NCBI GenBank assembly: GCA_016196295.1
Contig: JACPYA010000043.1
Coordinates: 1 to 34,080 of the forward strand
Direction of reading: 5' to 3'
Source of the DNA: Candidatus Peregrinibacteria bacterium
GTDB taxonomy: Bacteria; Patescibacteriota; Gracilibacteria; Peribacterales; Peribacteraceae
DNA: 34,080 nucleotides
The position numbers and the translations under genes were made by a program. This document shows, piece by piece, positions 344 through 18,724 of this stretch (within the stretch, counting starts at the first letter, position 1; each line of letters opens with the position of its first letter). The notes below the pieces were generated by a model. That model worked only from the letters and a program-made list of their open reading frames with translations. It ran no database searches and was not told the DNA's origin.

Positions 344-1501
344 ATGGATCTTCGAACCTTCCGCGTCGGCATGGACGGTGCAGAGCGCGTCACCGAGCGC
401 ATGAAGAGAATTTCGAAAGAACTGGGGCTCGACCTCTCCCCTCTCATGGCCGATCCGAAGAAGATCGGTGATGCCGAGGAGAAAAATTGCGAGAACATGT
501 TCGGACACGTGGGTATACCCATCGGCCTCGCGGGGCCGCTTCGCTGGACGCTCAGTACGGGCGAGCAGCGGGGAACTTATCTGCCGCTCGCGACAACGGA
601 GGGGGCGCTCGTTGCGAGTATCAATCGAGGATGCAAAGCGCTCACGGAGGCAGGCACCATCCGCACCCGCTGCATCTACCACGGCACGACGCGCTCGCTC
701 GCGTTTCGCGCACTCGATGGGGGCACCGATGTTGCGCGCGAGCTCAAGGACAGGGAACCGGAGTGGAGAGCGGTGGGCGAAGGCACGAGCGGACACCTGA
801 AAATCTTGCGCGCTGACATCGACGAGCGAGAGGGGCACGTATTCCTCACGATCGCCTGCGATACCGATGAAGCGATGGGCATGAACATGGTGACGATCGC
901 CGCGGCGGAGATCGGCAACTGGGTCGCGGAGAACCTGCCGGTGGAGTTCGTGACGGTCGCGGCGAACGTGGATGGCGACAAGAAGCCCAGCAAGCGCACG
1001 CACGACCTCGGGCGCGGGCACGAGGTGATCGCGGAAGGCATTCTGCCCCGTGCGACGGTCGAAAACATCCTGAAGACGACACCCGAGCAGATGGTGAAAG
1101 TCGCACGCGCCAAGCTGGCGGTCGGATCGCAGATCGCAGGATCGATCGGCAAGAATCTCCACATCGCCAATGTCATCGCGGCTCTCTACCTCGCAACCGG
1201 CCAGGACGCGGCGCACGTCGTGGAGGGATCGCTGGGCGACACGACCGTCATGCCGGAGAAAGATGGGCTGCGGGTGATGGTGCGGCTGCCTGCACTGCTC
1301 GTTGGCGTGCGCGGAGGCGGCACGCAGCTTCCGGCGCAAAACACTGCGCTCAAGATCATCCTGAAGGAAGAACCTTCGCTGCATCCGCGTCAGCTCCTCG
1401 CAGAGACCATCGGCGCGGCAGTCCTCGCAGGGGAAATGTCACTCCTTGCAGCGCAAGCAGCCCACGATCTCGCGATGGCGCACGTGAAACTCGCTCGCTG
1501 A
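344..1501 (+). CDS. hmgA: Hydroxymethylglutaryl-CoA reductase, class I-like
   Basis: 385 aa. It reduces HMG-CoA to mevalonate with two NAD(P)H in the cytosol, the committed step of the mevalonate pathway. Class I (archaeal/eukaryotic) signatures are present in order: IPIGLAGPL (58-66), TTEGALVAS with catalytic Glu86, NRGCKA (94-99), DEAMGMNM (175-182), DGDKKPS with the catalytic Lys at 213/214, GQDAAHVVEGS with Asp288, and the catalytic His380 in the C-terminal AHVKLAR. The length is right for a soluble enzyme with no membrane anchor. The cofactor cannot be read safely, although class I enzymes normally use NADPH. The ATG at 344 is chosen because of the -10 box 9 nt upstream. It follows mvaD on the same strand; its TGA abuts the stop of the convergent HMG-CoA synthase gene with no gap. 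Confidence 0.95.
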   Translation: MDLRTFRVGMDGAERVTERMKRISKELGLDLSPLMADPKKIGDAEEKNCENMFGHVGIPIGLAGPLRWTLSTGEQRGTYLPLATTEGALVASINRGCKALTEAGTIRTRCIYHGTTRSLAFRALDGGTDVARELKDREPEWRAVGEGTSGHLKILRADIDEREGHVFLTIACDTDEAMGMNMVTIAAAEIGNWVAENLPVEFVTVAANVDGDKKPSKRTHDLGRGHEVIAEGILPRATVENILKTTPEQMVKVARAKLAVGSQIAGSIGKNLHIANVIAALYLATGQDAAHVVEGSLGDTTVMPEKDGLRVMVRLPALLVGVRGGGTQLPAQNTALKIILKEEPSLHPRQLLAETIGAAVLAGEMSLLAAQAAHDLAMAHVKLAR

Positions 1502-2521
1502 TTACTGTTTTAGGGTAATCAAGTCGCTGTAACTCACGTAGGTCGTCTCGCGCTCGTCTTTCGGAAGCGCCACGCCATGTTTCTGCATCGTCAGGACGAA
1601 GGCATCGCAGCCGGCACCCGAGCCATACGACACGAGGAGGATCTTTTCTCCCTTCTTCGCCTTCTGCAGCACATGCACGAGGCCGAGGAGTGAGCAAGCA
1701 CTGTAGGTGTTGCCGATCGACGGCACGATGAATCCATGCTCCATCTGTGCTTTCGTGAATCCAAATTCCTTCGCGATGCGGCTGGGGAACTTGCCGTTCG
1801 GCATGTGGAGGACAATGTGTGCGAAGTCCTCTGGCTTCAGCTTGGCCGTGTCGAGCATCCCTGTGATGGCCGTGCGAACATGGTGGAAGTAGCCCGGCTC
1901 TCCGGTGAAACGTCCCGCATGGCGTGGATACTTCTCGTCGGCCGCTCTCCAGAAGTCCGGCGTGTCGGTCGTGAAGGAGAGTGTTGCATCGATCTTGCAG
2001 AGCGCATTTTTACTATCGGAAGGACCGAGGATCACAGCCGCCGCGCCGGCGGCGGCGGTGTACTCCAAGGCATCACCGGGCGCGGCCTGCGCGGTATCGG
2101 ATCCGATCGCGAGACCGTACTGCACCTGGCCCGCGCGTACCATGCTATCGACGATCTGCAGTCCCGCCGTCCCCGCTTTGCAGGCAAATTCGAGGTCAGC
2201 GCAGTGCGAGAATGGATGGAGCGACAGTGCCGCCGCGAGCATCCCGCTCGTCGGCTTCACGGCGTAGGGGTGACTCTCGGATCCGACGAAGATCGCGGAA
2301 ATCTCCGAAGAGCGGATCTTCCCGACCTCGATCGCCTGACGCGCGGCTTCGAAGGCCATCGTGAACGTGTCTTCATCTCTATCCGGAACGGTCTTCTCGT
2401 TCACGCCCAGAGAAGATGCCAGTGCACCGGGGTCTTGCTCCCACCGCGCCGCAATCTCCGACGTTTTGATCCGGAGGTTGGGGAGGTACATGCCGAAACC
2501 GATGATCGAGGAAGAAGCCAT
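1502..2521 (-). CDS. mvaS: Hydroxymethylglutaryl-CoA synthase, archaeal type
   Basis: 339 aa from the ATG at 2521; an in-frame TTG at 2539 lies inside the promoter and is rejected. It condenses acetyl-CoA with acetoacetyl-CoA to HMG-CoA. The thiolase-fold signatures are of the archaeal type: SESHPYAVKPTS (81-92), LEFACKAGT with catalytic Cys114, GDALEYTAAAGA (149-160), TDTPDFWR (185-192), GRFTGEP (203-209), HMPNGKFP with His239, and the C-terminal SYGSGAGCDAF. Archaeal enzymes of this kind form a complex with thiolase and a DUF35 protein, and both partners are encoded within 2.3 kb here. It is divergent from the thiolase gene and convergent with hmgA. Confidence 0.95.
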   Translation of the reverse strand: MASSSIIGFGMYLPNLRIKTSEIAARWEQDPGALASSLGVNEKTVPDRDEDTFTMAFEAARQAIEVGKIRSSEISAIFVGSESHPYAVKPTSGMLAAALSLHPFSHCADLEFACKAGTAGLQIVDSMVRAGQVQYGLAIGSDTAQAAPGDALEYTAAAGAAAVILGPSDSKNALCKIDATLSFTTDTPDFWRAADEKYPRHAGRFTGEPGYFHHVRTAITGMLDTAKLKPEDFAHIVLHMPNGKFPSRIAKEFGFTKAQMEHGFIVPSIGNTYSACSLLGLVHVLQKAKKGEKILLVSYGSGAGCDAFVLTMQKHGVALPKDERETTYVSYSDLITLKQ

Positions 2522-2529
2522 GGGAACGT

Positions 2530-2538
2530 AGTATAGCA
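2530..2538 (-). promoter_or_regulatory. Extended -10 of mvaS
   Basis: On the minus strand TGCTATACT ends 8 nt before the ATG at 2521. It is a textbook extended -10 (TGN plus TATACT), and no ribosome binding site fits between it and the start. Confidence 0.65.
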
Positions 2539-2557
2539 AAATGCCTACTATGAGGTG

Positions 2558-2706: not shown

Positions 2707-3834
2707 ATGCAGTGTGACGTCTTTTTGGTGGGAACCGGACAGACCCGCTTCGGCGAGCTCTTCGACAGGAGCACGCGCGACGTGATGGAAGAAGCGATCG
2801 GCAACGCAATCGAGAACTCCGGACTCACGTCGCTCGATATCGACATGGTCGTCGTCGCGAACATGCTGGCGGAGCAGACGAATAACCAAGCGCACCTGGG
2901 GTCCCTCGCCTCACAGATGCTCCCGCACCATCCGCCCGCTCTGCGCGTGGAAGCGGCCTGCGGATCCGGCGCGGTCGCGCTCCACACGGCAACGGCGCTG
3001 CTCGAGAGCAAACGCGCGGAGACGGTGCTCGTCGTCGGCGTCGAAAAAATGACCGATGCGAGCACGGAGGACGTGAGTACGGCACTCATGGGTGCGGCGG
3101 ATAGCGAACTCGACCAGCCGAGCGGCCTCACCTTCCCCGGTATCTTCGGCCTGATCGCACAGAGGTACATGCACGAGTACGGCCTCACACGAGAGCAACT
3201 CTCACTCGTGAGCGCGCTGCACCATCGAAATGGGATGCGAAATCCCTTCGCCCAGTTTCGCATCGAGGTGACGCCCGAGGCTGTCTCCCAAAGCAGTCCG
3301 GTCGCGGATCCGCTGCGGCTTCTGGACTGTTCGCCCATCAGTGACGGCGCAGCGGCGTGCATCCTTTCGACGCTCCACCGGTCGCCCCTGCGTCTCGCCG
3401 CATCACAGATTGCAACGGATACCCTCAGTATCGCGCAGCGAGCAACGCTTACGTCGTTCTCCGCATCGAAGGAAGCGATGGAGAGGGCGCTGCGCGAAGC
3501 GGAGATTGATCGCGATGAGATCAAAGCCCTCGAAACGCATGACTGCTTCTCCATCGCAGCGCTCATCAACCTGGAGGACCTGGGGTTTGCGGAGCCAGGC
3601 GAAGGAATCCGCCTCTACGAGGCGCTCTATAAAGGACGCGCAACTTCTCTGATGATCAATAGGAGCGGCGGACTCAAGGCGTGCGGTCATCCCGTTGCCG
3701 CAACCGGCGTGAAACAGCTGTGTGACATCGGCAAGCAATTGATAAGCGAGAAAAAGCAGTGGGGCATCGCCCACAACTTCGGCGGCGCGTGCGCCTCTTG
3801 TGGTATTCACCTACTCGAGAATCTTGATGCGTAA
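2707..3834 (+). CDS. Acetyl-CoA acetyltransferase (archaeal/SCP2-type thiolase)
   Basis: 375 aa. It condenses two acetyl-CoA to acetoacetyl-CoA, feeding HMG-CoA synthase. The nucleophile is Cys85 in VEAACGSGAV. Downstream are the ETHDCFS segment, GGLKACGHPVAATG (active-site His of the GHP motif) and NFGGACASCG near the C terminus, all in the order found in the SCP2/archaeal thiolase branch rather than in the bacterial AtoB/PhaA branch. The N terminus starts directly with the first beta strand (VFLVGTGQTRFG), which supports the ATG at 2707. It is followed after 38 bp by the DUF35-kinase fusion; archaeal thiolases of this type need a DUF35 partner, so the neighbour is probably functionally linked. 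Confidence 0.92.
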   Translation: MQCDVFLVGTGQTRFGELFDRSTRDVMEEAIGNAIENSGLTSLDIDMVVVANMLAEQTNNQAHLGSLASQMLPHHPPALRVEAACGSGAVALHTATALLESKRAETVLVVGVEKMTDASTEDVSTALMGAADSELDQPSGLTFPGIFGLIAQRYMHEYGLTREQLSLVSALHHRNGMRNPFAQFRIEVTPEAVSQSSPVADPLRLLDCSPISDGAAACILSTLHRSPLRLAASQIATDTLSIAQRATLTSFSASKEAMERALREAEIDRDEIKALETHDCFSIAALINLEDLGFAEPGEGIRLYEALYKGRATSLMINRSGGLKACGHPVAATGVKQLCDIGKQLISEKKQWGIAHNFGGACASCGIHLLENLDA

Positions 3835-3872: not shown

Positions 3873-4796
3873 ATGCGTGACTCCTCCCCCATCATCCACC
3901 GGGCGCAGAAGAAACGAAGCGACAAGCTCCAGAGCGGCACCATCGTGTCCTTCACGATGCTTCGAAACCCGCCTTCCCAATTTGGGAAGTCCCCGCGCCC
4001 GATTGGGCTCATCGAGCTGGAAGACGGGTCGAACGTCCTCGCCACGCTCGTCGGTTCGAACTTCCAGATCGGCCAGACGGTGCGCCCCCGCATGCGGCTG
4101 AGTTACGTGAACGAGGAAAAGCTGCGGATCTACGAAGTGGCCTATGAAACTGTAATGCCAGCGCGGATTTCATACCCGCGCGAGAAGGCTTTCCCCGGCT
4201 ACATCCTCGCGCTCACCGGCCCCTCCGGCGTCGGCAAGACGACCGTCAGCCGGATCCTCGCGAAAGGGTTTGGCGGGTCCCTCACGAGCGTGCCCATCGT
4301 CACGACGCGTGCACCGAAGTCCGGCGATGAAGGCGAGTACCTCCACATGACGACGAAGGAATTCGAAAACATGCGCGCGAAGGGCGCGATCATTGCGGTC
4401 ACGCATATCCCCTCCGCGACCGAAGAGCGATGGTACGGCTACCGGGCCGCCGATATCGAGGCGATCTGGAAAGCGGGCAAGCTCCCCGTCGTCATCACGG
4501 AGATGCATCTGCTCCAAGGCCTCGCGACGCACTTCGGCCGCCGGTCGATCCTCTCCTTCGGGCTGCTGCCTCCCGGCAAGAGCAAACGCACGATGCTCTC
4601 GCACCTGCTCCACCGCCTGCGCACCCGCGGCCGCGATACGGAGGAACACATCAAGGACCGCCTCAAGAATGCCGAGGCCGACATCGCGTTCTTCAAAGAG
4701 CGCAAAGACCTGTTCGATCATCTGCTCGTGAATGAGGATCTGGAAAAAGTCATTTCGACACTGAAAGAGCGCGTGCCAGGACTGTCTGAGGCGTGA
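3873..4796 (+). CDS. DUF35 OB-fold fused to guanylate-kinase-like P-loop domain
   Basis: 307 aa from the ATG at 3873 (a TACTTT -10 lies 11 nt upstream). Residues 21-92 read as a DUF35/ChsH2-type acyl-CoA-associated OB fold: SGTIVSFT, then PP, PRPIGLIELEDG, LATLVG and IGQTVRPRM in the family order. The Cys-rich zinc ribbon that normally precedes this fold is missing. Residues 110-305 are guanylate-kinase-like: Walker A GPSGVGKTT (116-124), TTRAPKSGDEGEY (144-157), WYGYRAADIEAIWKAGKLPVVI (187-208), and RLKNAEADIAFF...LLVNEDLEKVI near the end. By eye, GMP-contact positions differ from true GMP kinases: the second Arg is Lys149, the usual Glu of the FLE segment is not acidic, and the final Asp is Glu. 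The role is unknown. A thiolase/HMG-CoA synthase scaffold with an added nucleotide or phosphomevalonate-related kinase activity is possible; an ordinary GMP kinase is less likely. Confidence 0.8.
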   Translation: MRDSSPIIHRAQKKRSDKLQSGTIVSFTMLRNPPSQFGKSPRPIGLIELEDGSNVLATLVGSNFQIGQTVRPRMRLSYVNEEKLRIYEVAYETVMPARISYPREKAFPGYILALTGPSGVGKTTVSRILAKGFGGSLTSVPIVTTRAPKSGDEGEYLHMTTKEFENMRAKGAIIAVTHIPSATEERWYGYRAADIEAIWKAGKLPVVITEMHLLQGLATHFGRRSILSFGLLPPGKSKRTMLSHLLHRLRTRGRDTEEHIKDRLKNAEADIAFFKERKDLFDHLLVNEDLEKVISTLKERVPGLSEA

Positions 4797-9887: not shown

Positions 9888-10943
9888 TCACTCCACCTTC
9901 ACCGTCTTTGCTCCGCGGACATGTTGCACCATGGGAACATCGCGCTCTGCGATCTTCTTCGTCACTTTCTCCGCAGAGGAATTCTCCAGAACATAGGTGA
10001 AGATCAGCGGCGCGACGATGGAGGCGTCCGAATTGATGGTGAAGTCCACGGTTTTGAGATCCAACTTGTGCCACGTCACCTTCTCGTTCGGCGGACAGCC
10101 CGAGTACGAACCGAAGGAGGTGGTGGAGTCGCCGATGTGACAGAAGTATCGCCACGGCTTCACCGTGATCTTGTGATCCCACAGGAGCCCCGGCACCACG
10201 CACATCGCGAAGTCTCCCGCGATGCCGCCGCCGATCTGGAAGAACCCGATTTCGTGCTTCTTGTCGTTCTCCAAGTACCACGCCGTCAGGTGAGCGAACT
10301 GTTCGGTGCCCGGCTTGATGGTGCTGTAGTTCTTCAGTTTTCCTTTGATCATGTCGGCCGTGAACATGTTGCCGATGGTGGAGTCCTCCATGCCCGGCGT
10401 GTAGACGGGGATGTCCATGTCGCACGCGGCAAGCAACCAGGAGTTCTCCTCGGGCACGTCGTTCTTGCCCTTGAAGAAGCCGTTGCGGATCAGCTTGTAG
10501 AAGTATTCCCAGTGGAAGTAACTCTCGCCCTTGGCTTCGGCGTCTTTCCAGAGCTTGGACATGCCGGCGTAGACCTCCATCATGACGTCGTCGGGGATGC
10601 ACGTGTCCGTGACGCGGTTGAAGCCCTCTTCGCGCGTCTTCATGTCGTCTTTCATGTCCAGGAAGCGCCAGTTCGGCTGCAGCTTGTAGCGGCTATTGCC
10701 GACCAAGTTGAAGATATCTTCCTCGATGTTCGCGCCGGTGCAGGTGATGGCGTGCACTTTTCCCGTACGAATGAGCGGCGCCAGCGAGACGCCGATCTCG
10801 GCGGTGCTCATCGCACCCGCGAGACAGACAACCATTTTTCCGCCCTTATCCGCGAACTCCACCCAGCCTTTCGCGGCTGCCAGAGTTTCGCGAGCATTGA
10901 AGTGCCGGAAGTTATGTTCCATGAAGTGTGAGATCGTTGGCAT
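9888..10943 (-). CDS. Deoxyhypusine synthase family protein
   Basis: 351 aa from the ATG at 10943; a longer in-frame start at 10994 is possible but less like the family. The fold is the DHS Rossmann type that binds NAD: MVVCLAGAMSTAEIG (37-51), CTGANIEED (68-77), GFFQIGGGIAGDFAM, and NEKVTWHKLD, whose Lys matches the enamine-forming Lys of deoxyhypusine synthase (EAVSWGK). Bacteria lack eIF5A, and bacterial homologues transfer the aminobutyl group of spermidine or putrescine to a small amine (for example homospermidine synthase). It is divergent from the putrescine-forming pair at 11024-12945, which fits a polyamine role. The exact product is not known. Confidence 0.9.
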   Translation of the reverse strand: MPTISHFMEHNFRHFNARETLAAAKGWVEFADKGGKMVVCLAGAMSTAEIGVSLAPLIRTGKVHAITCTGANIEEDIFNLVGNSRYKLQPNWRFLDMKDDMKTREEGFNRVTDTCIPDDVMMEVYAGMSKLWKDAEAKGESYFHWEYFYKLIRNGFFKGKNDVPEENSWLLAACDMDIPVYTPGMEDSTIGNMFTADMIKGKLKNYSTIKPGTEQFAHLTAWYLENDKKHEIGFFQIGGGIAGDFAMCVVPGLLWDHKITVKPWRYFCHIGDSTTSFGSYSGCPPNEKVTWHKLDLKTVDFTINSDASIVAPLIFTYVLENSSAEKVTKKIAERDVPMVQHVRGAKTVKVE

Positions 10944-11002
10944 ATGTAGAAGGAAACAATGCAAGAATAATGATTCATATTTTTCGCACGTCAAGGAAAT
11001 AT

Positions 11003-11011
11003 TGCTACACT
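11003..11011 (+). promoter_or_regulatory. Extended -10 of the aguB-aguA operon
   Basis: TGCTACACT ends 12 nt before the ATG at 11024 (15 before the alternative ATG at 11027), slightly longer than in most genes here. Confidence 0.55.
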
Positions 11012-11023
11012 TTCCTTCACTCC

Positions 11024-11887
11024 ATGATGAATCGCTCGATCACCATCGGTCTCGTGCAGATGCAATGTGACGCTGACGCGAAAAAAAATCTCGCGACGGC
11101 GTTGCGTCACCTCGAACACGCGGCGAAAAACGGAGCGCAGATCGCGTGTCTGCCGGAGCTCTTTCTTTCGCCGTATTTCTGTCAGAAAAAAGATGATCGA
11201 GAGGCGCTGGAGAGCGCAGAGCCGATTCCAAACGCGGCGACGAAGGCCTTGAGCGAGGCCGCGGCGAAACTGAAAATCGTCCTCGTCGGAGGATCGGTCT
11301 ACGAACGCGCGCACGATGGAAAAAAATATAATACCGCGCTCGTCTTCGGTCCCGATGGAAACACGATCGGCACCTACAGAAAGACACACATCCCGGAAGA
11401 TGCTCTGTATCATGAGCAGCACTATTTCGCGCCGGGTGACACCGGGATCCGCGTGTTCGACACGCCCTTCGGAAAGATCTGCCCGCTCATCTGCTTCGAC
11501 CAGTGGTTCCCGGAGGCCGCGCGCATCGCCGCGCTCAAAGGAGCCGAGATCATCTTCTACCCGACCGCGATCGGCACGATCGATGAATCGGTGGAGGAAA
11601 ATATTACCGGCGACTGGGAGCAGATGTGGCGAGCCGTCCAAGTCGGCCACGCCGCCGCGAACACCATCTATATTGCGGCGGTGAATCGTGTGGGAACGGA
11701 AGGCGCCATCCACTTCTGGGGAGGCTCCTTCGTCGCAGATCCCTCGGGGAAAATCCTCGCGAAGGCGGACAATCGCGAGCAAGTGCTCCTCGCGACGTGC
11801 GACCTCGCGCGCGTGCACGATCTGCAAGACGCGTGGGGATTCATCCGCAATCGCCGTCCCGATACCTATAGTGATCTCACACAATGA
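11024..11887 (+). CDS. aguB: N-carbamoylputrescine amidase (nitrilase superfamily)
   Basis: 287 aa; ATG 11024 or the next codon 11027. It hydrolyses N-carbamoylputrescine to putrescine, CO2 and ammonia. The nitrilase triad is intact: Glu45 in CLPELF, Lys120 in YRKTHIPE, Cys157 in PLICFDQWFPE. EQHYFAPGD and WGGSFVADPSG are typical of the AguB/CPA branch. It overlaps the agmatine deiminase gene by ATGA (11884-11887), so the two are translationally coupled and form the two-step agmatine-to-putrescine route. Confidence 0.94.
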   Translation: MMNRSITIGLVQMQCDADAKKNLATALRHLEHAAKNGAQIACLPELFLSPYFCQKKDDREALESAEPIPNAATKALSEAAAKLKIVLVGGSVYERAHDGKKYNTALVFGPDGNTIGTYRKTHIPEDALYHEQHYFAPGDTGIRVFDTPFGKICPLICFDQWFPEAARIAALKGAEIIFYPTAIGTIDESVEENITGDWEQMWRAVQVGHAAANTIYIAAVNRVGTEGAIHFWGGSFVADPSGKILAKADNREQVLLATCDLARVHDLQDAWGFIRNRRPDTYSDLTQ

Positions 11888-12945
11888 CGAAAAGCCCGAA
11901 AGCATTGGGGTTCCGCATGCCCGCGGAATGGGAGCCGCACGCAGCCACGTGGCTCACCTGGCCGCATAACGAGAACCACTGGCCGGGAAAGTTCGAAAAA
12001 ATCCCGCCGATCTGGGCGCAGATGGTGCGAGAACTTTCCACGGGAGAGGACGTGCATATCCTCGTGCACAGCAGCGAGGTGCAGAAGAACGCCGAAGCAG
12101 AACTCAAACGAGCCGGCGTCACAAGCAGCCGCGTATTTCTGCATCGATTCAAGAACAATTACTCCTGGGCGCGCGATCATGGCCCTATTTTCCTGAAGCG
12201 AAGCGGAAGCCCCGAGCGAAGTCGCGGGGGTCAAAAAGAGGAGAGCATGATCACCAACTGGACGTTCAACGGGTGGGGCAACAAGTGGCCACATGACTTG
12301 GATGATCAAGTTCCCTCCTTCGTCAGCAAGCTCACGGGTATCAAAGAAGTGCAGATGCCGATGGTCCTCGAGGGCGGCTCCATCGACACAAACGGCAAAG
12401 GCACGCTCCTCACGACATCCTCATGCCTCCTCCATCCCAACCGGAACCCGGGGATGACTAAGGAGCAGATCGAGGAGAACCTGAAAGAGTATCTCGGCAT
12501 GACGCAGGTGCTCTGGCTCGACCACGGCATCGCGGGAGATGACACAAACGGCCACATCGACGACATGTCGCGCTTCATCGGACCGAAGACGGTCTATACG
12601 GTCGTGGAGGAAAATCCGGAGGATGAAAACTACGCGGGACTCGAGGAGAACCGCACATCGCTCGAGCAGATGAAAGATCAAGAGGGAAATGCACTGGAAG
12701 TCATCGCGGTGCCGCAGCCTGCCCCGATCTACTACCAAGGCATGCGCCTCCCCGCGAGCTACGCGAACTTCTACATCGGCAACGATGCCGTTCTTCTTCC
12801 CGTCTTTAATGATCCGCACGATGCTTTTGCCATCGAAACGCTGAAGAAAGCATTCCCCACGCGAAGAATCGTCGGCATCAATGCGGTGGATCTCATCTGG
12901 GGCTTTGGAGCATTTCATTGTGTGACACAACAACAACCCGCTTAG
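11884..12945 (+). CDS. aguA: Agmatine deiminase
   Basis: 353 aa. It converts agmatine to N-carbamoylputrescine and ammonia (GME/pentein fold). Signatures: MPAEWEPHAATWLTWPHN (12-29), SWARDHGP with Asp98, LEGGSID with Glu163, DDTNGHIDD with His224 and Asp226, and the nucleophile Cys346 in HCVTQQQP at the C terminus. Residues about 107-120 (SGSPERSRGGQKEE) do not fit the usual loop before the NWTFNGWG strand and are encoded by a small palindrome. It is downstream of and coupled to aguB. A second, broken copy of the C-terminal motif follows at 13006-13038. Confidence 0.95.
   Translation: MTKSPKALGFRMPAEWEPHAATWLTWPHNENHWPGKFEKIPPIWAQMVRELSTGEDVHILVHSSEVQKNAEAELKRAGVTSSRVFLHRFKNNYSWARDHGPIFLKRSGSPERSRGGQKEESMITNWTFNGWGNKWPHDLDDQVPSFVSKLTGIKEVQMPMVLEGGSIDTNGKGTLLTTSSCLLHPNRNPGMTKEQIEENLKEYLGMTQVLWLDHGIAGDDTNGHIDDMSRFIGPKTVYTVVEENPEDENYAGLEENRTSLEQMKDQEGNALEVIAVPQPAPIYYQGMRLPASYANFYIGNDAVLLPVFNDPHDAFAIETLKKAFPTRRIVGINAVDLIWGFGAFHCVTQQQPA
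12207..12231. repeat. Small palindrome inside aguA
   Basis: CCCCG...CGGGG around AGCGAAGT, translated in frame as SPERSRGG. Its composition (CCCCGAGCGAAGT) is like the dispersed palindromes elsewhere in the window. Confidence 0.5.
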
Positions 12946-17230: not shown

Positions 17231-17254
17231 TCTTCCATGTGGTACCATTGGACC

Positions 17255-18724
17255 ATGGACAACCGCTACGTCATCTACGTTCGGAAGTCGAGTGAACAAG
17301 AAGAGAGACAGGCATTGTCCATTGCCGCTCAATTTCGTGAACTCGAAGAGTACGCAGCAAAAGAGCAGTTACAAATCGTCGCCTCCTTCGAGGAGGCCAG
17401 AACAGCACGCGAAACCGGACGAATAATATTCGAAGAAATGTTGGGATGGATTGAACGAAATGAAGCAGACGGCATTTTGGCATGGCATCCCGATCGATTG
17501 GCACGCAACGCCGTGGACGGCGGCCAGATCATCCATCTTCTCGACTGCGGAAAGTTGAAAGATCTGCGCTTCCCGACCATGACTTTCGATAACAGCCCCA
17601 ATGGGAAGTTCATGCTGCAAATCGCCTTCGGCCAGTCCAAGTACTACACAGACGCCCTAAGCGAGAACGTGAAACGCGGCATCCGGCAAAAGATGAAGCG
17701 CGGCGAATGGTCCTGGAAAGCGCCGACGGGGTATCTCAATAACCCTCATACGAGAAACATCGACATTGACCCCGAGAAAGCGCCGATCATTCGGGAAGCA
17801 TTCAAGCTTTACGCCACCGGCGACTACACGCTGGATGCCATCAAGGACTTTCTTGCGACAAAGGGCTTCCGCAGTCGAACGAACAAGGTTATGGCAAAGG
17901 CTTCCGTCCAGACACTGCTCAAAAATCCCATTCATTGCGGGCTCATGCAGGTGAACGGCGAACTGCATGAAGGGTCTTTCAAGCCGCTCATCAGCAAAGA
18001 ACTATTCGACAGGTGCCAAGACGTCATGAAGAGTCGGGGCAAGGCAACGCGCAAGAGACACAATGATTTTCCCTTTGTCGGCTGGCTCACATGCGTTCAT
18101 TGCGGATGCTCCATCACCTGCCAGAGACAAAAGGGCCATCATTACTACCACTGCACCAAGAAGCGCGGTCCTTGCCCCAGCAAGCACTACGTCCGTGAGG
18201 AAACGATCCTTCGGCGAGCGAAAAAGATAGTCGAACAGCTCTCTTTGCCTGATCTTTGGGCGGATAACATTCTCAAGAAGCTCGACCAGGAAGACACAGT
18301 GCAAAAGTCAGGCCATCGCGTAGCCGTTGAGCATTTGAAAAACGAGAAACGAGAGCTTGAGGAGAAACTCGAAGACCTCCTCGATCTACGGCTTGATGGC
18401 GCGCTCAGCAATGACGAGTACCTCGGTAAAAAGAACAAGCTCGTTTCTCGGAAGGTTAATCTCGACCAGAAGATCGCCCATGCGGAACGAAGCCACTGTG
18501 AATGGCTAGAACCGTGTCGCCAGATGATTCTTCGCAGTAAGAGAGCCAAAAGTCTGCTTCAGACAAAAGATTTGAAGGAAATCCCAACATTTCTCAAACA
18601 AGCCGGCTTGAACTGGTCTTTGAAAGACGATGCGGTGCGGTGGGATGCCAAAATCGGGTGGCGCGTGCTATGCGCCAGCCCCAAAAGTCGTAATTGGTGG
18701 ACGATACTGGATTCGAACCAGTGA
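17255..18724 (+). CDS. Large serine recombinase (site-specific integrase)
   Basis: 489 aa from the ATG at 17255. Resolvase N-terminal domain: YVIYVRKSSEQEERQALSIAAQ, catalytic Ser12 (or 13), and the ILAWHPDRLARN helix. Then a recombinase domain (KRGIRQKMKRGEW...APTGYLNN, and the DNA-binding part to about 260), a zinc ribbon (CVHCGCSITC...YHCTKKRGPC, about 285-310), and a long coiled coil (about 350-430). The last codons WTILDSNQ-stop are read from the 3' half of tRNA-Val, so the gene ends in the probable attachment site. It integrates or excises the element by Ser-linked strand exchange. A fragment of a related recombinase lies just upstream on the other strand. Confidence 0.93.
   Translation: MDNRYVIYVRKSSEQEERQALSIAAQFRELEEYAAKEQLQIVASFEEARTARETGRIIFEEMLGWIERNEADGILAWHPDRLARNAVDGGQIIHLLDCGKLKDLRFPTMTFDNSPNGKFMLQIAFGQSKYYTDALSENVKRGIRQKMKRGEWSWKAPTGYLNNPHTRNIDIDPEKAPIIREAFKLYATGDYTLDAIKDFLATKGFRSRTNKVMAKASVQTLLKNPIHCGLMQVNGELHEGSFKPLISKELFDRCQDVMKSRGKATRKRHNDFPFVGWLTCVHCGCSITCQRQKGHHYYHCTKKRGPCPSKHYVREETILRRAKKIVEQLSLPDLWADNILKKLDQEDTVQKSGHRVAVEHLKNEKRELEEKLEDLLDLRLDGALSNDEYLGKKNKLVSRKVNLDQKIAHAERSHCEWLEPCRQMILRSKRAKSLLQTKDLKEIPTFLKQAGLNWSLKDDAVRWDAKIGWRVLCASPKSRNWWTILDSNQ

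Follow-up and report, generated by a model that had tools for sequence, protein, structure and literature searches.

A DUF35/guanylate-kinase-like fusion protein as a candidate for the missing kinase of the mevalonate pathway in Peribacteria

What is a guanylate kinase doing at the end of a scaffold protein of isoprenoid synthesis? The question is raised by a gene in a 34,080-nucleotide stretch of DNA from a Candidatus Peregrinibacteria bacterium (GCA_016196295.1, contig JACPYA010000043.1; hereafter "the window"): a single unbroken ORF, opening with ATG at 3873, that joins a DUF35 domain to a domain of the guanylate kinase (GK) fold in the midst of mevalonate pathway genes (Table 1). The answer offered here, which we consider probable, is that a kinase descended from guanylate kinase and fused to a DUF35 scaffold supplies the missing step of the pathway. 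Domain identity, conservation, co-occurrence, gene content, residue pattern and the decay of the active site in genomes with a PMK-like gene (PMK, phosphomevalonate kinase) are established by the comparison of sequences; activity, substrate and tethering are inferred from them.

The fusion protein and its neighbours

A first-pass annotation of this DNA had read residues 21-92 as a DUF35 OB domain and placed a guanylate kinase part C-terminal to it. Both assignments hold: Pfam finds OB_ChsH2_C/DUF35 (PF01796) at residues 21-74 (37.5 bits; cut-off, 27.1) and Guanylate_kin (PF00625) at residues 113-299 (50.9 bits; cut-off, 25.2), and the AlphaFold2 model (mean pLDDT, 86.8), for which an alignment of 42 relatives served as input, consists of an OB-type set of strands and a GK fold with a low-confidence linker between them. 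The top Foldseek match to the model is yeast GMP kinase in its GMP-bound form (1gky; TM 0.85 by target length, E 8e-16), and the best PDB match of the DUF35 profile is a chain labelled "Pfam DUF35" (E 1.8e-10). The same annotation had remarked on the loss of the DUF35 zinc ribbon. As an observation this stands, the four-cysteine N-terminal zinc ribbon (rubredoxin-like) domain being absent and only a short helix preceding the OB fold; as a mark of the fusion it does not, since the standalone DUF35 proteins of distant Patescibacteria also lack the ribbon, and the notion that fusion caused its loss has to be rejected.

The DUF35 domain, the thiolase and the HMG-CoA synthase of the window find their top PDB sequence matches in chains E, A and I, respectively, of one entry, 6ESQ, the archaeal complex of these three proteins in which the DUF35 subunit is the scaffold (PMC6996347). 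The adjacency of the genes is preserved as well, and the putative partners of the fusion protein are encoded alongside it. The window DUF35 differs from its archaeal counterpart in lacking the zinc ribbon and in bearing a kinase domain; that a complex forms here at all is only inferred. (The HMG-CoA synthase gene of the window is inverted with respect to those of the reductase and the thiolase; in the sampled relatives that were checked, the three are co-directional.) The genomic cluster also holds the genes of a short GHMP kinase and a decarboxylase, with those of UppS and IPP isomerase within or adjoining it; the GHMP genes of the window's own genome are on another contig (C4).

Table 1. Coordinates of the fusion gene, its parts and its neighbours in the window
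Feature	Position	Strand	Basis or remark
HMG-CoA reductase	344..1501	+	PF00368, 283.9 bits
Archaeal-type HMG-CoA synthase	1502..2539	-	TIGR00748, 400 bits (cut-off, 353); top PDB match 6esq chain I, E 2.5e-105
Acetoacetyl-CoA thiolase, directly upstream of the fusion	2707..3834	+	Thiolase_N/C_1; top PDB match 6esq chain A, E 2.4e-75
DUF35/guanylate-kinase-like fusion protein, 307 aa	3873..4796	+	Translation; PF01796 and PF00625 above cut-offs; fusion in 46/57 family genomes
DUF35 OB domain, residues 21-93; short helix N-terminal to it, no zinc ribbon	3933..4151	+	PF01796; AlphaFold2 strands 22-93; top PDB match 6esq chain E
Flexible linker, residues 94-107	4152..4193	+	pLDDT < 50 at residues 96-104
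Guanylate-kinase-fold domain, residues 108-305	4194..4787	+	PF00625; Foldseek top match 1gky
P-loop GPSGVGKTT, residues 116-124	4218..4244	+	GxxGxGK[ST] kept in 38/38 kinase-intact relatives; GVGRT in G044
Y188-G189-Y190	4434..4442	+	Acceptor-phosphate Tyr (yeast Y78) retained; Tyr in place of guanine-contact Ser80

The fusion is present at full length in 46 of the 57 genomes of the Peribacteria family (Patescibacteria) and in none of 39 sampled genomes from other families of the same class; the named relatives that were found are Candidatus Peribacteria and Peregrinibacteria. An artefact of assembly or a frameshift can be dismissed, the identical fusion occurring in 46 genomes of which one (G027) is a single contig. 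In the sampled phylum, every DUF35 match within the family lies in a frame of at least 305 aa, and those outside it lie in short frames of about 100-175 aa (one of 259). Several distant Patescibacteria families have a standalone, ribbon-less DUF35 encoded between the thiolase and a pair of kinases; distant Patescibacteria with the unfused DUF35 have two GHMP kinases, including the PMK-like kinase "A" discussed below, and the decarboxylase that goes with it. In one family genome the complete fusion gene is closely followed by a fragment that repeats part of the GK C-terminus, with 57% identity to residues 261-306 (G002:C71:44109-44246).

The kinase step missing from the family's isoprenoid route

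IspH is absent from 57/57 family genomes (the controls were detected in 10 genomes), which means that these bacteria have no MEP pathway and depend on the mevalonate route. Most of the family genomes yield two GHMP matches, a mevalonate-kinase-like protein and a decarboxylase; since a second GHMP kinase is absent from most of them, one kinase step is missing. A 2016 study of five Peribacteria genomes found genes leading up to mevalonate-5P and then from mevalonate-5PP onward, and called the pathway "near-complete" (PMC4736985).

None of the known candidates for the step has come to light. No family genome (0/57) has a match above cut-off to the isopentenyl phosphate kinase model NF040647; AA-kinase searches returned one match each in several near-complete genomes, and in three of these it was confirmed as UMP kinase. 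The animal-type PMK (PF04275) has no match in the 57 genomes, which is weak evidence in the absence of a working positive control. An unrecognised kinase elsewhere in the family genomes cannot be excluded.

Might the roles be exchanged, the GK domain acting as mevalonate kinase (MVK) and the short GHMP protein as PMK? It can be said for this arrangement that NCBIfam scores kinase A, the extra GHMP kinase present where the GK domain has decayed, best as a mevalonate kinase. However, the top PDB matches of the short GHMP protein are the staphylococcal and streptococcal MVKs, and it matches no PMK in the PDB except, weakly, Lin0012; moreover, the GK domain keeps acceptor-phosphate residues for which mevalonate would have no use. 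The exchange is disfavoured, and we hold it to be very improbable.

Residues of the GK active site and their decay

In the numbering of the yeast enzyme, the GK domain of the window retains K14, R38, Y50, Y78, R131, R135 and R146; at the acceptor-phosphate positions R38, Y50 and Y78 are kept and R41 is Lys. The guanine contacts, by contrast, are replaced: S34 by I, E69 by A, S80 by Y and D98 by I, with E at D100. The first-pass impression that the GMP-contact positions look changed is thereby confirmed, and it extends to the family. In the main set of 36 sampled fusions from genomes without an extra GHMP kinase, K14, Y50, Y78, R131, R135 and R146 are invariant (36/36), R38 is altered once, and S34, E69, S80 and D98 are replaced in 36/36; two further fusions, in G050 and G025, also conform, and S34, E69 and S80 are substituted in every sampled fusion. 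A GK-specific arginine, R186, lies near the acceptor site in 38/38 intact proteins. Such a domain appears suited to phosphorylate a monophosphate other than GMP, an activity inferred from its residues.

That it is nonetheless an ordinary or backup GMP kinase, joined to DUF35 by chance, is scarcely tenable. It shares with guanylate kinase (gmk; TIGR03263/PF00625) the fold, the P-loop, the acceptor-phosphate Arg/Tyr/Tyr and the LID arginines, but it differs in the replaced guanine contacts (S34, E69, S80 and D98, throughout the sampled fusions), in the extra arginines 186 and 254, in an insertion at 236-246 in the LID and in being fused to DUF35; its score of 80.4 bits against the TIGR03263 equivalog does not reach the cut-off of 160.45. 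The window genome has a separate gmk (G000:C34, 91.4 bits), so that the finding which the first-pass annotation had named as fatal to its idea, an ordinary GMP kinase that is the genome's sole gmk, is not what is seen; the other such finding, failure of residues 21-92 to fold as an OB domain, is likewise not borne out by the predicted structure. The protein is rejected both as an ordinary and as the only GMP kinase. A precedent of sorts is provided by ribose 1,5-bisphosphokinase PhnN, a kinase related to GK whose phosphate acceptor is not a nucleotide, but PhnN belongs to another pathway and is matched only weakly (28.7 bits, far under its cut-off of 156).

The fate of these residues goes largely with what else the genome encodes. 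Eight family genomes carry the extra, PMK-like GHMP kinase A together with a different decarboxylase. Among these eight, seven have a broken GK active site, spread over four independent lineages, versus none of the 37 examined genomes without A, and the damage differs between lineages. At seven catalytic positions 24 of 49 cells are changed in the broken proteins, as against 1 of 266 in kinase-intact ones; what is lost is the catalytic set (R146, Y156, R186, Y188, R254, R263 and others), Y188, for instance, being present in 38/38 intact proteins and gone from six of the seven broken ones. The eighth genome, G025, carries A and has kept its GK site intact. With ancestry ignored, the Fisher value for the association of A with GK decay is 1.8e-7; because there are only five independent contrasts, the sign test gives only p=0.125, even though four of them agree and none is opposed, the remaining one (G025 versus G050) showing no decay. 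(A technical note: the tree behind the contrasts was built from thiolase, reductase and synthase, and by itself it cannot distinguish gain of A from its loss.)

What, then, is kinase A? HMM scores did not tell MVK and PMK apart within the set of GHMP proteins, and motifs and gene content were used instead. A has a GSGFD motif, which we take to be ERG8-like, and local matches to TIGR01220, TIGR01219 and NF040957; its neighbour has the MVK signature HGxPSGGDN and less PMK signal. We read A as a PMK for these reasons and despite its NCBIfam ranking as a mevalonate kinase, an identification by motifs and elimination only.

A different set of residues (R223, S228, 230-235, R239, S243 and L246) is invariant even in the dead proteins and partly changed in an unfused relative in genome G012, a pattern suggestive of a part in structure or docking. 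Should one go further and deny the entire domain any catalytic importance, regarding it as a structural or regulatory module such as a scaffold-borne nucleotide sensor? GK domains can turn into binding modules, as they do in MAGUK proteins, and the persistence of the GK fold in all seven broken-site proteins, along with that invariant set, would fit. On the other hand, catalytic positions are almost unchanged in proteins with an intact kinase site, which come almost entirely from genomes without a PMK-like kinase, and the pathway would be left one kinase short. We judge a purely structural or regulatory function unlikely.

A proposed function, and the question of the substrate

A GK-derived kinase serving the mevalonate pathway remains the preferred explanation. 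The N-terminal DUF35 OB domain would dock onto the thiolase/HMG-CoA synthase complex, and the C-terminal GK-fold domain would be an active kinase devoid of guanine recognition that phosphorylates a small monophosphate of the pathway; docking and activity are both inferences. The idea that DUF35 serves here as a bridge and that the P-loop kinase joined to it might phosphorylate something in the mevalonate route had been put forward in the first-pass annotation, and it gains support on three counts: the fusion and HMG-CoA reductase co-occur exactly, being present in the same 46 genomes (46/46) and absent from the same 11 (0/11); none of the kinases known to carry out the final phosphorylation is present; and the GK site has been lost almost only in genomes with a PMK-like gene. 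For the companion suggestion of a coupling to nucleotide level there is nothing to indicate that nucleotide levels are sensed. Two genomes sit awkwardly with the explanation: G025, with its intact GK site beside the extra kinase, and G012, whose intact GK domain stands alone in a genome that lacks both HMG-CoA reductase and GHMP kinases.

The G012 protein (L159:9498-10256, minus strand, on G012:C1) is about 50% identical, has an intact active site and no DUF35, and is encoded among ribosomal protein genes near secY; this genome, 99% complete, lacks HMG-CoA reductase, GHMP kinases and IspH. The protein could represent an unfused form or serve as a salvage kinase.

Two substrates come into consideration, each a special case of the preferred explanation. 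The domain could convert isopentenyl phosphate to isopentenyl diphosphate, provided that the adjacent decarboxylase is of the phosphomevalonate type; mevalonate would then pass through mevalonate 5-phosphate and isopentenyl phosphate to IPP by the route of haloarchaea and Chloroflexi, except that the last kinase would be an unrelated one. (The known isopentenyl phosphate kinase, NF040647, would catalyze the same reaction but has the AA-kinase fold, unrelated to that of GK, and the window protein is not a member of its family.) Alternatively, the domain could convert mevalonate 5-phosphate to its diphosphate, in a classical pathway whose PMK would be of a third kind, unrelated to the GHMP type (TIGR01220/ERG8/NF040957) and the animal type (PF04275). 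The latter is also a P-loop kinase; the window protein differs from both in belonging to the GK family, and neither type is among the Pfam and NCBIfam matches listed for it.

The decarboxylases speak for isopentenyl phosphate. At two positions the usual decarboxylase of 34 sampled genomes has Asn (31/31 where covered) and His (34/34), like the phosphomevalonate decarboxylase of Anaerolinea (6n0x); Lys and Met stand there in the diphosphomevalonate decarboxylases of mouse, human and Arabidopsis and in the mutant entry 6n0z, and the first position is Lys or Arg in 16/16 genomes with a PMK-like kinase. Mutagenesis has switched the substrate specificity of the Anaerolinea phosphomevalonate decarboxylase, as stated in PMC9254496, which cites Thomas et al. 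2019. Judged by these residues the usual enzyme looks like a phosphomevalonate decarboxylase, a pattern that makes isopentenyl phosphate the likelier GK substrate and tells against mevalonate 5-phosphate. The largely hydrophobic residues that replace the guanine contacts (I, A, Y, I/V) point the same way, and retention of the kinase in G012 without an upstream pathway would fit salvage of isopentenyl phosphate. Genomes G022 and G050 point in the opposite direction: they combine an intact GK with a Lys-type decarboxylase and no PMK-like kinase, which favours mevalonate 5-phosphate. So does R186, which would suit an extra negative charge on the substrate and might make contact with the carboxylate of mevalonate 5-phosphate, and so does the PMK-like character of the gene that accompanies GK decay. 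We put isopentenyl phosphate somewhat short of an even chance, and mevalonate 5-phosphate only a little behind it; the choice is not settled, and both may be valid if the enzyme is permissive.

A more ambitious picture can be sketched, and we would sooner expect it to fail in some part than to hold as a whole. A guanylate kinase recruited as isopentenyl phosphate kinase, and tied through DUF35 to thiolase and HMG-CoA synthase, would unite the opening and closing steps of IPP synthesis in one assembly; where a lineage has a PMK and the matching decarboxylase the kinase would die, its body staying on as a structural part.

If the preferred explanation is true, it fills the gap in the Peribacteria pathway, adds an evolutionarily separate kinase to the GHMP-type PMK, the animal P-loop PMK and the AA-kinase type of isopentenyl phosphate kinase, and provides an instance of guanylate kinase converted to isoprenoid metabolism as well as the first case seen here of a DUF35 scaffold bearing a catalytic kinase. 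Among the best-ranked literature matches, no publication connected guanylate kinase with the mevalonate pathway. The genomes with decayed GK sites are ready-made negative controls, which makes the idea directly testable.

Some further features deserve mention. The decarboxylases of G022 (L147:9795-10820) and G050 (L134:175-1314) are of a third type, with a YMGKDxRG insertion. In Dec2-type decarboxylases (for example L121:13603-14580, L216:9286-10278, L221:5650-6657) the catalytic Asp (YTLDAG) is changed to Asn (NTGQD/NTGQN), a change common in Patescibacteria with the two-kinase set. Elsewhere in the window, N-carbamoylputrescine amidase and agmatine deiminase are encoded in tandem (putrescine synthesis; 10928-12945, plus strand), preceded by a 443-aa ORF without a Pfam or NCBIfam match, and a large serine recombinase with Resolvase, Recombinase and Zn-ribbon domains is encoded at 17237-18724 (plus strand).
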